Below are positions 11,410 to 19,424 of a stretch of 64,000 nucleotides of DNA, piece after piece. Location: contig CAIQIE010000354.1 in assembly GCA_903871805.1 (NCBI GenBank), positions 1 to 64,000 on the forward strand, in the 5' to 3' direction. Position numbers and translations under genes: made by a program. The notes beneath the pieces are model-generated. The model was given only the letters and a program-made list of their open reading frames with translations. It made no database searches and was not told the origin of the DNA. Source of the DNA: an uncultured Planctomycetaceae bacterium (GTDB lineage: Bacteria; Planctomycetota; Planctomycetia; Planctomycetales; Planctomycetaceae). Each line of letters opens with the position of its first letter. Positions within the stretch are counted from its first letter, which is position 1.

Positions 11410-11543
11410 ATTAAAGCAATTGAAGATCAGGGCCGCTCGGGAGGAACAGGCGAGTGTAAATCCCGGCAGTGTCAACAGAGGTGTTCCCGCTGCAGTCTCC
11501 GGGCTGCTGCGGGGAATTGATCAGAAAGTTCGGTGGTGCATCG

Positions 11544-12950
11544 ATGCAAAGTCCTTCGGAAAAGCATTTCGATGTGATAGTGATCGGAACAGGGCCTGGT
11601 GGTGAAGGCGCTTCAATGGAAGCCACCAAGCAGGGGAAACGAGTCTGTGCGGTTGAGCGGATGGCGTCGATCGGTGGAGCGTGCACGCATCTTGGGACGA
11701 TTCCCAGCAAGTCGCTTCGGGCAGCCATCTACCGTCTGATGGACGTCAACTCGGCCCCCATTTTCAAACAGCTGGGCATCAATCTGACCATTAGCTTTCG
11801 TGACCTTCGTCGCAGCGCGCAGTCGGTCATTGATCAGCAGGTCAGCATGCGCCGCAGCTTCTACGACCGAAACGACGTGGAGGTACTGGCAGGGCAGGCA
11901 CAGTTCCTGGATCCGCATCGGATTTTGGTCCAGCATGATGATGGCAGCACAACGATCGCGCACGGCCGCAATTTTGTGATTGCCGCCGGTTCCCGCCCGT
12001 ATCGACCCCCGGAAATTGACTTCAATCATCCGCGAGTGTTTGACAGCGATACCATTCTGAATCTCCCTGAAACGCCCCGCAGTATGACAATTTACGGCGC
12101 GGGTGTTATCGGCTGCGAGTATGCGTCCATGTTTCGCAATCTGCAGGTTAAACTGAATCTGGTCAACACGCGGCCCAAAATGCTGGAGTTTCTGGATGAT
12201 GAAATCTGTGACGCGCTGGCCTATCACATGCGTGATACCGGGGTGCGAATTCGAAACAATGAAACATTCGATAAACTTGAGACTTTTGACGATCACGTTG
12301 TCTTGCATCTGAAATCCGGAAAGCAGCTGAAGAGTGACGTACTGCTGTGGGCCAATGGACGTACGGGAAATACGGACGGTCTTGGACTGGAAAATGTTGG
12401 TCTGAAACCCAATCATCGAGGGCAGCTGGATGTCAACGAGAACATGCAGACCAGCCAGCCGCACATCTACGCCGTAGGCGATGTGATCGGCGTACCCGCT
12501 CTGGCCAGTGCCGCTTACATTCAGGGGCGATACGCCGCAAGGCATCTGGGAGAAGGTGGGGCAGAGAAGATTCGCATCAGTGACATTCCCGCCGGGATTT
12601 ATACAAGCCCGGAAATCAGCAGTATTGGAAAGACGGAACGCGAACTGACAGAAGAGTGCATTCCATACGAGGTGGGGCATTCCATGTTCAAGAATCTCGC
12701 CAGGGCCCAGATTATGGGGCGGCCTGTCGGCATGCTGAAGATTCTGTTTCACAGGGACACCCTGGAAATTCTGGGAGTGCACTGTTTCGGAGTGAATGCC
12801 AGCGAGATCATTCACATTGGGCAGGCCATTATGACGCAACCGGCACCGCATAATTCGTTGCTCTATTTCATCAATACAACATTCAACTATCCGACGATGG
12901 CCGAGGCGTATCGCGTGGCTGCGCTGAATGGCTACAACCGCATTTATTAG
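11544..12950 (+). CDS. sthA: Si-specific NAD(P)+ transhydrogenase (soluble pyridine nucleotide transhydrogenase)
   Basis: [47 protein letters not shown] (no CxxxxC redox pair), second Rossmann motif [16 protein letters not shown]. Likely start at the internal ATG of ORF 11469..12950. Confidence 0.9.
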
Positions 12951-13407
12951 GCGAGTTGTTTCTGCTGGCCCGCAGCGTCCGTCCGAGGAACACGCAAAAC
13001 TAATTCTGAGATTCGGCTTTAAGAAAAAAATCCTCGCAACGAATCCGATTCATGCTTCAGCGTGCAGGTGCGTCACGCTGTAGCTGGAATTCCTGAGATT
13101 TTCCGCGATTTTCAGCGGGATTTTCCGGGGATTTTCAGTGGAATGCGACGATCTTCCCGCTAAACTTGGGTTTGGTGGTGAAACCCCCATCGAGTCGTTT
13201 GGTGCAGACGAGATTGGTAACACTCACGTCGTCCAGCGGTTCGTTGAGGTAGTTTTGGGATGACCTTGGCGGAGCTCCGCCACGTGTTTCCATGGCGAAC
13301 ATTGCCATGTGTCAATTTAGGCTGATTGTTCCGTAGATTTCTGCAACAGTGCTGGATGTGTTGGCGATGTGCGGCCTTCAGCGCGATTTTACTGCGTGGC
13401 AACACTC

Positions 13408-14340
13408 ATGAAATCAATGTCACTTTTTGCTTCGACGCTGTTCCTGATGACTTGCTGCTGGGCTGACTCCGCTTCAGGGCAGTCCGGTGGGGCGACGTCA
13501 GCGGGATCCAGCGGACTTTCTGGTCTTAGCAGTGCTCAGCTGTCTGGCCTGTCGTCCAAACTGTCGGGGCTTCCGTCGCTGAATGCCTCTCAGATATCCA
13601 GCCTGTCGTCGCAGTTGTCGGGGCTTTCGTCGCTGAATGCTTCCCAGATCTCCAGCTTAACCTCGCGGTTGTCTGGGCTCTCTTCACTGAGCGCGTCCCA
13701 GATCTCCAGCCTAACGTCGCAGCTGTCAGGACTTTCATCGTCTGGAGTCAGTGGACTTTCTGGCAGTGGCACCAACTCATCTACGTCGACTTCGGGATTG
13801 GGCACGGCAGGCTCCTCAACTACCAGCACGACTGGTGGAGGTTCCAGTAGCTCTGGTGGCATGTCCGGGGCGGGCTTCGGAGGCACTGGCTTTGCTGCGG
13901 GCGGATCCACTGATGCCGCGAACGGGTTTGTAGGTGGAAATCAGAGCGAGAATTTTGTTGGTGCGGGTCAGCAAGGTAATCGAACAAACACAAACCAACA
14001 GTTCCAGGCCTTTCAGGGAACCCAGAACAACTCCAATCAAGGCTCTCAATCGTCCGGAACACCACGTCAGATAAAGACTGCACTGCGGGTGAATTTTTCA
14101 TTTCCCGCGACTGCTCAGGTACGGTCGCAGGGAAAGATGGCTGCAGCTAATTCACCGTCCCTCGAGAGATACGTGACTCGGTATCCAGAACTGAGTGGCA
14201 TCGTCGTCAGCCTGCAGGAGAACGGTGTCGTTGTCCTTTCCGGTGAAACCACCTCCGTTGAGAGTGCGCGGCTGGCCGCCAATCTTGTGCGACTTCAACC
14301 TGGGGTTCGTCGGGTCGAGAATCAGACCAATCTGAGGTAA
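13408..14340 (+). CDS. Secreted low-complexity repeat protein with C-terminal BON-like domain (paralog 1)
   Basis: Signal peptide MKSMSLFASTLFLMTCCWADSASG, three 18-aa LSGLSSLNASQISSLTS repeats, then PELSGIVVSLQENGVVVLSGETTSVESARLAANLVRLQPGVRRVENQTNL. Confidence 0.8.
   Translation: MKSMSLFASTLFLMTCCWADSASGQSGGATSAGSSGLSGLSSAQLSGLSSKLSGLPSLNASQISSLSSQLSGLSSLNASQISSLTSRLSGLSSLSASQISSLTSQLSGLSSSGVSGLSGSGTNSSTSTSGLGTAGSSTTSTTGGGSSSSGGMSGAGFGGTGFAAGGSTDAANGFVGGNQSENFVGAGQQGNRTNTNQQFQAFQGTQNNSNQGSQSSGTPRQIKTALRVNFSFPATAQVRSQGKMAAANSPSLERYVTRYPELSGIVVSLQENGVVVLSGETTSVESARLAANLVRLQPGVRRVENQTNLR
13561..13722 (+). repeat. Three in-frame 54-bp tandem repeats (18 aa units)
   Basis: Units LSGLPSLNASQISSLSSQ / LSGLSSLNASQISSLTSR / LSGLSSLSASQISSLTSQ at 13561-13614, 13615-13668 and 13669-13722. 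Confidence 0.9.
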
Positions 14341-14669
14341 TAGTGCGTGCTGCTTTCGCCGTGGTTGGTCCCGGCAATGTGTAATTGATAGGCCGAAAGC
14401 GAGTTTCCAACGCCCACCACGGGCCATTGCCCAACTCGGCTAAAGTGGGCCGTTACTCAGTGTTGGCCGAGATCTCCACAAACACTGCAGCACCGCCAGG
14501 CAAAACTCGCCATCGAACAGTAGGATTGCTCCGGCATTTGCCCTCCGGGAAATTCAATTGTTTGGCAGATTCGGTCAACAGGCATGGCTGGAAGTATGGC
14601 GTAGACTTTAACCTGGCTGGTCGCATGGAAAAGCGGCTGAAAAACGTTGCAAACCATTCCGGCGGTACA

Positions 14670-14900
14670 CAAACCATGGCGAACCAATTTTCGAACGAGT
14701 TCGTGACGACATCAGGGGATTCAGCGGCACCTGATCGCAGACGATTCCGGAAACATGTCTGTGCCGATGAACTGTGGGCAGATCGAGCATTGAGGCCCGT
14801 TCCGTAAGTTTCGGAATGAGGCGTTGGATCCTCCATTTTCGTGATCCGGGCAGGTTCGCAGATCAGGCCGTTACCGTCGAAATGGGCCGAAATTCTACCA
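14670..14900 (-). pseudogene. Decayed fragment of the lnt 3' end (apolipoprotein N-acyltransferase C-terminus)
   Basis: Frame 14608..14790(-) encodes VHRHRHVSGIVCDQVPLNPLMSSRTRSKIGSPWF versus Lnt GHWHRQFSGIVSGQVPLDPRTSLYTRFGDWF. Nucleotide alignment to 16425-16625 is visible (e.g. agcggcacctgatcgcagacgattccggaaa / agcggcacctgcccggagacgatcccggaaa). Confidence 0.8.
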
Positions 14901-15341
14901 AACGCTGATCGGCACCAGGGTGGTAATCGAATACTAAATTAAGGCCTCCCATTCATCGTGGTAAGGTCAGGTTTGAGGAGTGCTAATCCGGTAAGGCTGT
15001 TTGCCCGACTGGCGAAATTAACGAAAATTCCCCGCGATTCCTTGGGGAATTTGGGAAAAGTCGCAGTGGAAACCGACGATCTTCTCATTAGAATTCGTGT
15101 GGTGGATGTTTTCGGTGACTGGTGTTTCTGCCAGTTGCCGAGATTCTTCACCAGGTTGGCCCCCTGCAGGTCTTCCGGCGACGTCCGTTTCATCGTTGGT
15201 TTTTGTCTCTTCAATAGCCTTCGCGTGTGACTGGATTGCTCATCCTGTTTTTGACTTGTTCCCGGTTTTCAACCAGACGTTTGCTGGGTCACGTGGAGTT
15301 CCTCCAGTTCCCGGCAGTCGGACGCTGCACGGCTTACTCCT

Positions 15342-16148
15342 ATGAGACGAGTTTCGATTTCTGCCCTGGTAGTTTTCCTTGGTTGTTTCGGGCTGAACAC
15401 AGCGATTGCCCAATCAGGGGGCAATGGCGGTGGAAACAGTGGCTTTAGCGGCAGTGGGCTTTCGGGCTCGGGCTCCAGTGGCCTTTCGGGCGCAGGATTC
15501 AGTGGTTTATCTGCTGCAGGGGTGTCATCCTTAAGTTCCTCGCAAATGTCTGCGCTCTCGGCATTAGGTGTGAGTGGTTTGGGAAGCGGAACAACAGGCA
15601 CGTCATCCACTTCTCGTACAGGGACGAATGGCACTACGGGCGGTACCGGGACAACAGGAAATACGGGCGGCACCGGTGGAACCGGCAATGCGACTGGCGG
15701 TACCGGTACTGGTGCCGGCAATGGCAATGGGTTTGTCGGCGGAAATCAGAGCCAGACGTTTGTCGGTGCCGGGCAGCAACAGCAGGGGAACCGAACAAAC
15801 ACGAATCGGCAGTTTCAGTTTCAGGCGGCTCAGAACAATTCCATGCAAAGCAGCCAGTCAACAGGAACGCCGAGGCAGGTAAAAACCGCTCTGCGAGTGA
15901 ACTTTTCCTTCCCAGCCACAGCCCAGGCGGACTCGCGGGGAAAACTTGCCAAGGCTAACGTGGCATCGCTCGATCGTTACGTGTCGCGATACCCGGAGTT
16001 GTCCGGGATTGCCGTCAGCCTGCAGCCGAATGGGGTTGCGGTCTTGTCTGGTGAAACAGCCTCAGCTGAGACGGCTAAACTTGCAGAGAATCTTGTACGG
16101 TTGCAACCCGGTGTCCGCTTTGTTGAAAATCAAACAAGCATCAAATGA
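15342..16148 (+). CDS. Secreted Gly/Ser/Thr-rich protein with C-terminal BON-like domain (paralog 2)
   Basis: Signal peptide MRRVSISALVVFLGCFGLNTAIAQ; C-terminus GTPRQVKTALRVNFSFPATAQ...PELSGIAVSLQPNGVAVLSGETASAETAKLAENLVRLQPGVRFVENQTSIK closely matches paralog 1. Confidence 0.85.
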   Translation: MRRVSISALVVFLGCFGLNTAIAQSGGNGGGNSGFSGSGLSGSGSSGLSGAGFSGLSAAGVSSLSSSQMSALSALGVSGLGSGTTGTSSTSRTGTNGTTGGTGTTGNTGGTGGTGNATGGTGTGAGNGNGFVGGNQSQTFVGAGQQQQGNRTNTNRQFQFQAAQNNSMQSSQSTGTPRQVKTALRVNFSFPATAQADSRGKLAKANVASLDRYVSRYPELSGIAVSLQPNGVAVLSGETASAETAKLAENLVRLQPGVRFVENQTSIK

Positions 16149-16320
16149 TTCACCACGGTTTGGTCTGACTGATCGTGCCTGAGCGACAGTCTGTATGGGA
16201 TGAGTTCCTGGGGATTGAACTCTTTGTTGTTCAATCGACTGACGCCGCTTCAGTTTATTTGGATTCCCTTGCGTGCGGGTGAATGATTTTTGGCTGGACA
16301 GTGCTTCGGTCATGCTTCTG

Positions 16321-18195
16321 TCATTCAGGCAGAGCTCGCGGCTCCGATGGGCGTAACCAACCGGCGGCGGTGGTGCTCACTATCGTCAGCAGCAGGCAGA
16401 GTCCTGCAAACCAGTCCCCAAATCGTGTGTAGAGTGACGTTCTTGGATCGAGCGGCACCTGCCCGGAGACGATCCCGGAAAACTGTCTGTGCCAATGGCC
16501 CGTGTCTGGATCGCGCATTGAGCCGAGTTCCGTAAACTTCGCAACGCTCTGCAAGGGTTCTTCCATTTTCATAATGCGGTCGGGTTCGCGAATTCGGCCA
16601 TTCCCGTCGATGAAGGCCGAGATTCCTCCGTTGACGGAGCGAACCATGGGTATGCGATTTTCCACGCAGCGGAATGCCGCGGTAATCAGATGCTGATCGA
16701 GTTCACTGCTTCCATGAAACCACGCGTCATTGGTTAGGTTGATCAGGAGGTCTGCCGGGGCCCCGTCGGGACTTTCCTGCGCGGCCATGCGTCTGACCAG
16801 GTGTGGCACAGTGTCTTCAAAACAGATTAGCGGGGCAGCGTTCCAGGATCCGTACTCAAAGAGTCTTACGTCTTTTCCGGCAGAAATTCCAAATCCGGCA
16901 CCAAAGGGCGTTAGATCACGGAGCCACGGCAACAAGTCTCTCATCGGAATGTACTCTCCAAAGATGACTCGATGGATCTTGTCATACCGAGACACATAGC
17001 CGAGATCAGGGCGGATGAATGCGGCCGAGTTGAATGTTCGTGGTCCGTTCCGCTCCGCCACCGTTGCTTCCAGACCGATCACGAGTGCGGCGCCAGTTCC
17101 CTGAGCATGACCAGCCAGACTTTTCTGCACTTCCTGATTGCGGAATGGCTCGACAATCAGATGAGCGTCTTTGCCGTAGTCGCGCAGCACTTCAAGTGGC
17201 ACCTGAGCAAGAATCTCTTCGTCCGAAACGCCCTCTGCGACCGTACGTTCCGGCCACGGGAACATGGTCTCTGGCCATACGACGAAGTCAGGCTGCAGTG
17301 GGATGGAGTTCTGCATCAGTGTATTGTGAACTCGGAACCGATTTAGAGTGAGCTTGCTGTCGTGCTTGAGTTCCGGAGGGAAATTGCCCTGAATCAAAGC
17401 CACAACAGGTCCGGGAGGAAAGCGATCCGCGGGCATCTGGCGAAGAAGGCCGTAACCGAGACAGCAGATCACGATGGCGATGGTGAAGATGGCGGAGTGA
17501 GAGGATGCCCCGTCGCTGGCGGCGTTGATATCAAGGTTCAGGCGGCGCAGAAAACGTGCTGGAACTCTTACTGCAATTGCTGCAGAGACAAGTGCGACTA
17601 CAAAGCTCACACCATATGCCCCGGTTATGTCGGAAATCTGAATCATGGCTGTCCAGCGGTACTGAGAATGGCCGAGGTAGTACCAGGAAAATCCGGTCAG
17701 CAGATGGGCGCGAGCTAACTCGAGGGCCGTCCAGACAATGGGGGCAGAGAGCCAGAGCGGGAAACGGCAACGCACTGCTCTGCGCGTAAGCCAGACAAAA
17801 ACTGGAAAGAACAGTCCCACCCACAGGGAAAGGGCAACGAGTGCCAGATACATGGCGGGGTGCCCGAGTCGCATCCACTGCAATGTTGCTATGCCCCAGC
17901 TGAAACCAGCTAACCAGATCAGGGAGAAGGACCATGCCGGTAGCGATTGAAGTCGGCAGAGTTGCAGGATTGGCACCAGAGCCAGCCATGCCGCAGGAGC
18001 CAGTTCTACAGGAGTGAATGACAGCCAGAGCAGCAGCGAGCTGGAGAGCGTCAGGAGGAACACGGATCGAACGGATCCGATACCGAGAGGGTGTTCAATC
18101 CGCCCCGACGCCAGGATTCTGCGTACCTCCGGTCGAAGAGAACCTCCATTCCCGGATTGTGGCGTCGTGCAAGACATAGCAAAGCATCCGTGCAT
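16321..18195 (-). CDS. lnt: Apolipoprotein N-acyltransferase
   Basis: 624 aa; multi-pass N-terminus, carbon-nitrogen hydrolase region (VALIQGNFPPE, VWPETMFPWPE, YDKIHRVIFGEYIPMRDLLPWLRDLTPF, PLICFEDTVPHLVR, NLTNDAWFHGSSELDQH). Confidence 0.93.
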   Translation of the reverse strand: MHGCFAMSCTTPQSGNGGSLRPEVRRILASGRIEHPLGIGSVRSVFLLTLSSSLLLWLSFTPVELAPAAWLALVPILQLCRLQSLPAWSFSLIWLAGFSWGIATLQWMRLGHPAMYLALVALSLWVGLFFPVFVWLTRRAVRCRFPLWLSAPIVWTALELARAHLLTGFSWYYLGHSQYRWTAMIQISDITGAYGVSFVVALVSAAIAVRVPARFLRRLNLDINAASDGASSHSAIFTIAIVICCLGYGLLRQMPADRFPPGPVVALIQGNFPPELKHDSKLTLNRFRVHNTLMQNSIPLQPDFVVWPETMFPWPERTVAEGVSDEEILAQVPLEVLRDYGKDAHLIVEPFRNQEVQKSLAGHAQGTGAALVIGLEATVAERNGPRTFNSAAFIRPDLGYVSRYDKIHRVIFGEYIPMRDLLPWLRDLTPFGAGFGISAGKDVRLFEYGSWNAAPLICFEDTVPHLVRRMAAQESPDGAPADLLINLTNDAWFHGSSELDQHLITAAFRCVENRIPMVRSVNGGISAFIDGNGRIREPDRIMKMEEPLQSVAKFTELGSMRDPDTGHWHRQFSGIVSGQVPLDPRTSLYTRFGDWFAGLCLLLTIVSTTAAGWLRPSEPRALPE

Positions 18196-18284: not shown

Positions 18285-19424
18285 TTACTTCGCGGCCTTT
18301 TTCAGCACTTTAGCCTTGTCGGTCGCTTCCCATGTGAAAGTCGCACCGGAGCGGCCGAAGTGACCACCTTCCGCTGTTTTCAGGAATACCGGGCGACGCA
18401 ACTTGAGGTGCTCGATAATGCCTTTTGGTGTGAGCGGGAAGTGTTCGCGGACAAGTTCTTCAATCCGACTCTCGGCAATCTTCGCAGTGCCGAACGTGTC
18501 CACTCGGATACTGACCGGGTCGGCAACACCGATTGCGTAAGCCAGCTGCACTTCACACTGATCGGCCAATCCTGCGGCGACGATGTTCTTGGCTACATAG
18601 CGACCCATGTAGGCCGCGGAACGGTCAACCTTGGTAGCGTCTTTACCTGAGAAGGCGCCGCCGCCGTGACGTCCCCAGCCGCCGTAGGTGTCCACAATGA
18701 TCTTTCGGCCAGTCAGACCGGTGTCACCATGCGGACCTCCGACAACAAATCTTCCCGTTGGGTTGATGTGGTATTTGGTCTTGCTGTCCAGAAGTTCAGC
18801 CGGAATCACCTTGCCGATCACTTCCTTCTTCACAAAGTTGGTGATTTCCTTCTGAGTGACCTTTTCTGCGTGCTGGGTGGAAATAACGATCGCATCCACT
18901 CGAACCGGCGTTGCTCCGTCATACTCTACCGTAACCTGACTCTTGCTGTCAGGACGCAGCCAGTTGACGAGGCCTTCTTTGCGCACTTCCGTCAGACGAT
19001 TGATCAGGCGATGAGCAAACGCGATGGGTACCGGCATCAGCTCTTCGGTCTGATTGCACGCATATCCGAACATCAGGCCCTGATCGCCAGCACCGTCTTT
19101 GTCGACGCCCTGAGCAATGTCCGGGCTCTGACTGTGCAGAGCCACAAAGATGCGGCAGGAGTCGGCGTTAAATCCGATGTCATCTGATGTGTAGCCAATG
19201 TCACGAATAACCCTGCGAGTGACTCCGACATAATCAACCTTCGCCTTGGTCGTGATCTCTCCGGCCAGTACGACCAGGTCCGTTGTGCAGAGCGTTTCAC
19301 AGGCCACGCGGGACATAGGGTCCTGCTCCAGAATGGCATCCAGGATACCGTCTGACACCTGATCGGAAACCTTGTCCGGATGCCCCTGACTCACAGATTC
19401 GCTGGTGAAGAAAAACCGGGCCAT
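18285..19424 (-). CDS. metK: S-adenosylmethionine synthetase
   Basis: 379 aa; [96 protein letters not shown]. Confidence 0.98.

Follow-up and report, generated by a model that had tools for sequence, protein, structure and literature searches.

A tandem pair of BON genes with an lnt relic between the copies, and the differing apparent ages of its parts

Results and Discussion

The duplicated segment

An upstream leader, a BON-domain gene and the 3′ end of convergent lnt form a 1.8-kb segment that is present twice in succession between sthA and metK in the window, the 64,000-nucleotide stretch of a Planctomycetaceae contig analysed here. Comparison of positions 13000-14995 with 14996-16800 gave three matches, which were collinear and on the same strand. 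One joins the C-terminal halves of the two BON genes (13868-14327 and 15665-16135; 68% identity, E 1e-61). Another joins a relic of lnt, lying between the BON genes, to the 3′ end of the intact gene (14717-14895 and 16445-16625; 73% over 181 columns, E 9e-30). It extends to 14679-14921 and 16406-16651, and has a local score of 84, compared to a maximum of 22 in 500 shuffles. The leaders form the third match (13098-13178 and 15027-15105; 68% over 81 columns, E 1e-5), with a local score of 27 that lies above every shuffle (maximum 23 in 500 wide shuffles, 19 in narrow ones).

These three collinear matches bear out the initial annotation, which had described the unit of leader, BON gene and lnt 3′ end as present twice, with leaders that align and with 14670-14900 matching the end of lnt at 16425-16625. 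Its coordinates were correct to a few tens of bases, and both self-alignments that it had proposed as checks (relic against lnt, and leader against leader) are significant. Of its interpretation, the segmental duplication and the divergence of the N-terminal repeat regions stood; its reading of direction and mechanism from the lnt scar was not supported, as described below.

Three parts are not shared between the units: 311 bases 3′ of the BON1 stop codon, 88 bases 5′ of leader 2, and the greatest part of the N-terminal repeat regions. The 88 bases form a junction zone between the relic and leader 2 (14939-15026) with no detectable origin. Nothing above shuffles was found when it was compared with lnt, the sthA-BON intergenic region, the lnt-metK spacer and the rest of the window. 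A junction without a match is expected after long decay, and is therefore no argument against duplication. The spacer 3′ of BON1 likewise showed no homology above shuffles when compared with the BON2-lnt spacer and with relatives. An assembly artefact was ruled out, as some 30% of positions differ between the copies, and one 67-kb contig holds both.

The locus in related genomes

The left flank is a sthA-like soluble NAD(P) transhydrogenase gene (11469-12950, plus strand), which scores 693 bits with the NCBIfam model NF003585 (cut-off 465). Its product is 92-94% identical in amino acids to those of G129 and G123 (Planctomycetaceae MAGs CAIYBH010000216.1 and JALQWE010000162.1), and the gene is collinear in relatives. 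The right flank is metK (18285-19424, minus strand; TIGR01034), which is collinear with lnt in relatives.

BON homologues were found in 142 of the 170 genomes of the family. Five relatives in the genus (G129, G123, G124, G121 and G125) have the same locus, in the order sthA-like gene, BON, convergent lnt. The copy-number check that had been suggested for relatives gave one BON gene and no lnt remnant in all five, and no relic was present in the 900 bases 5′ of BON in eight of eight relatives. Because these five have the sthA-BON-lnt arrangement with a single BON and no relic, a single copy is the ancestral state.

The lnt scar had also been taken to show the direction of the duplication. This is not supported, and the direction cannot be recovered: neither unit of a tandem repeat is the new one, and the single locus of the relatives has its closest matches in leader 2, BON2 and intact lnt.

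Two other relatives, G128 (L039) and G127 (L043), have the helicase-metK-lnt block inverted or shifted with respect to BON, and the adjacency of BON and lnt is therefore not fixed in the genus. Three genomes of the genus (G118, G130 and G133) have a second, distant BON-like match elsewhere, in an open frame of about 430-440 amino acids (E about 1e-4).

Constraint on the BON pair

Both BON copies have been kept as proteins and are under constraint. Over 136 codons, BON1 (13408-14340, plus strand) and BON2 (15342-16148, plus strand) have a dN of 0.18, while their synonymous sites are saturated (pS 0.78), and 39 of 57 four-fold sites differ (0.68). It is this low dN alongside high four-fold divergence that shows constraint on both genes, which answers the dN/dS check proposed for the two BON domains. 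The four-fold divergence between the copies is at the level seen between species (0.63-0.70 to G129 and G123; BON1-G129 0.63, BON2-G129 0.70), and 0.56-0.61 of four-fold sites differ from G129 in the flanking genes. In the BON-domain region the copies are 76% identical to each other. BON2 is 80-83% identical to the BON proteins of G129 and G123, and is the copy nearest to the single BON of the relatives.

The lnt relic

The intact lnt gene (apolipoprotein N-acyltransferase; 16321-18195, minus strand) is convergent with BON2. It scores 272 bits against TIGR00546 (cut-off 132.9) and contains the Pfam domains LNT_N and CN_hydrolase. The relic, on the minus strand, corresponds to its 3′ part (Lnt residues about 516-601). 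Its limits were set at 14652-14938 by nhmmer (E 2e-57), with a profile of the lnt 3′ end whose nine rows include the relic itself. The minus-strand peptide reported earlier, HVSGIVCDQVPLNP, is present and aligns with FSGIVSGQVPLDP of Lnt. Unlike the intact gene, the relic has no 5′ part, and its Lnt-like stretches lie in two different frames. It is thus an lnt pseudogene fragment: homologous, truncated and with a broken frame. A mobile repeat was ruled out, as the relic was found only here and at lnt, bar one weak 42-nt match.

Between the frame shifts, each Lnt-like segment of the relic is free of stop codons. The preservation of the relic (score 88 over 243 bases) is far above that of the BON-lnt spacer in the closer pair, G129 and G123 (score 26.5 over 361). 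Stop-free segments and preservation above the level of a spacer are in keeping with a late death of the relic.

Trees and dates

In the BON protein tree, BON1 falls outside a group of BON2, G129 and G123 (98/95). A sister pair of BON1 and BON2 is rejected under LG (AU p 0.006), whereas nucleotide models (AU p 0.09 and 0.27) and a mixture model (0.21) do not reject it. Two indels are common only to BON2, G129 and G123, while BON1 keeps the states of the wider genus (a poly-Q tract two residues shorter, and QFQAFQ instead of QFQFQ); the poly-Q indel could be homoplastic. In the relic tree, the relic joins the window's own lnt (89/90), and a tree constrained to unite lnt with G129 and G123 is worse by 4.5 log units (AU p 0.076). 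As inferred from these alignments, the two trees disagree, and neither is conclusive alone.

Do the relic and the BON pair have the same age? Dates were estimated by a simple Jukes-Cantor likelihood, in which the codon-position rates of lnt came from comparing the window with G129 and G123, and are expressed as four-fold substitutions per lineage, a scale on which the species split lies at 0.65. They are rough, as they rest on few sites (219 and 57) and the counts were already known when the models were set up. If dead from birth, the relic has an age of 0.32 (0.25-0.41), and the BON pair has an age of 0.81 (above 0.45). One shared date is rejected for a relic that was dead from the start (LRT 8.7, p 0.003). 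The fit improves (p 0.0006) under a late-death model, in which the relic was at first under coding constraint and decayed afterwards; the BON age is then 0.64 and the neutral decay 0.16. A slow-relic model, in which the relic evolves at 0.3-0.4 times the four-fold rate, does about as well as late death. The proposal that the lnt scar shows the mechanism of duplication is not supported: there is no readable breakpoint sequence, and the relic, treated as dead DNA, looks younger than the BON pair.

The slow rate would also fit a fragment held under selection in some other role, such as a terminator, an antisense transcript or the 3′ UTR of BON1, and the relic is indeed better preserved than the BON-lnt spacer of G129 and G123. 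However, a search of the region against Rfam, up to E 1, gave no known RNA, and nothing comparable is present at this place in relatives. We consider a functional role for the fragment highly improbable.

The initial annotation implied a recent duplication that truncated lnt. A tandem duplication after the split from G129 and G123, with lnt truncated at birth and BON copies that evolved unusually fast, would account for the grouping of the relic with its own lnt and for the age of the relic alone, which is about half that of the split. It would also fit the relic-only changes at conserved lnt sites, which are spread across codon positions (12/58, 16/66 and 10/29). This history conflicts with the BON data, however. 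The likelihood ratio test above rejects an equal age of the BON pair, the BON synonymous sites are saturated, and BON1 retains the ancestral form of indels that changed jointly in BON2 and the relatives. We therefore regard it as unlikely.

Origin of the second unit

The rejection of a single date and the fit of late death point to one of two histories: either the duplication was larger and the second lnt decayed late, or there was import from a sister lineage. We consider the most likely reading, at roughly even confidence, to be an old tandem duplication in which one unit was lost in the relatives and the extra lnt decayed late. Tandem duplication between sthA and metK would have copied at least 1.7-1.9 kb, comprising leader, BON and the 3′ end of convergent lnt, at about the time when the lineage separated from G129 and G123, and the BON1 unit would have been lost in the relatives. 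The duplicated stretch may at first have held more of lnt, under coding constraint for a while. Later, both the 5′ part and the reading frame of the second lnt would have been lost. No special mechanism is needed.

In favour of an old duplication, BON1 falls outside the group of BON2, G129 and G123 and does not share their two indels, the four-fold divergence of the copies is at the interspecies level, and the age of the BON pair under late death (0.64) is close to that of the species split. Against it, the relic joins its own lnt, which speaks for an event later than the split; the second lnt would have been without the promoter on the metK side; and the BON topology is non-significant under nucleotide and mixture models (AU p 0.09-0.27). 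No trace of the rest of the second lnt was found, nor of BON1 or the relic in relatives.

Alternatively, a segment with BON1 and the lnt tail may have been imported from a sister species and placed beside the resident locus, by one homologous and one illegitimate crossover or by integration of a circle. The differences between the BON genes and between the lnt sequences would then have been interspecific from the start, and the lnt tail would have decayed only since its arrival. Several observations agree with this: the synonymous divergence of BON1 and BON2 equals interspecies values, BON1 branches just outside BON2, G129 and G123, the relic is richer in third-position differences (33/72 compared to 35/147), and a late-death model fits. 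As no relative has a second copy or a remnant, no loss has to be assumed. On the other hand, a donor was not found among the 170 family genomes or the GTDB r220 contigs, and the relic is nearer to its own lnt than to any other. Additive import is also rarer than tandem duplication, which we counted against it. We hold import to be possible, at distinctly less than even confidence. BON1 and the relic might then be xenologous, derived from a sister species that has not been sampled and kept as a second allele, with the lnt tail as a scar of transfer.

Tandem duplications that leave a truncated neighbour at the junction are well known. As in these, there are two head-to-tail units here, with a complete lnt on the outside and only part of it between them. 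The differences are that the copies are old, with saturated synonymous sites, and that the partial lnt appears to have died after the BON copies split. The mild interest of the locus thus lies in the mismatch in age between the BON pair and the lnt relic. It is a well-anchored old gene pair whose neighbouring relic allows separate dating; its significance is modest, and it suggests that the age of a scar need not equal that of the duplication it apparently marks. If import were true, the locus would neatly exemplify additive allele transfer in Planctomycetes.

Protein architecture and leaders

BON1 and BON2 have the same architecture. Each begins with a signal-peptide-like stretch that ends before QSGG (read by eye), followed by Ser/Gly/Leu/Thr-rich repeats and a C-terminal BON domain. 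From these N-termini, both proteins are probably exported. Against Pfam BON (PF04972; cut-off 27 bits), the score is 29.7 bits for BON1 and, just under the cut-off, 26.5 bits for BON2. The predicted structure of BON2 is disordered to about residue 207 and then forms an alpha-beta-beta-alpha-beta block, which is the BON order (helices 207-216 and 242-253; strands 223-227, 232-239 and 260-267; pLDDT about 62-82).

The predicted fold, the profile scores at or near the cut-off and the export-signal-like starts agree with the Pfam family of OsmY and its relatives. In contrast to that family, a single BON domain here stands behind a long disordered Ser/Gly/Leu/Thr-rich stem, and the profile matches only over its later two thirds (positions 22-67 of 69). 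Sequence searches of solved structures gave nothing significant, and a literature search on secreted planctomycete BON proteins gave nothing relevant. By analogy with the family, BON1 and BON2 may bind lipid or the envelope, and two copies could provide dosage or a modest division of labour.

BON1 contains about four 54-nt tandem units at 13535-13742 (LSGLSSLNASQISSLTSQ-like), which are absent from BON2, and relatives have short SGL repeats at this position. For this reason the BON stem seems to be remodelled as repeats expand. The N-terminal repeat regions had been described as diverged, which is correct, and the repeat tracts differ between species too.

Leader 1 (13098-13178, plus strand) lies about 230-310 nt 5′ of the BON1 ATG and is 71% identical to G123 over 93 columns. 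In leader 2 (15027-15178, plus strand), 15027-15105 is common to leader 1 and 15032-15178 is common to the leaders of relatives. Neither leader gave a significant match to those of G128, G127, G120, G124, G121 and G125. The leader core TGGANNCCGACGATCTTC has one exact match in the genome; leader 1 has it with one mismatch, and all others have two. The single exact match rules out a genome-wide element. Both copies, as well as G129 and G123 (L032 5217-5358; L033 4549-4694), have a conserved element with this core 230-310 nt 5′ of the BON start, although the nearby spacer is not conserved. From its sequence and position, it is possibly a promoter or untranslated-leader element.
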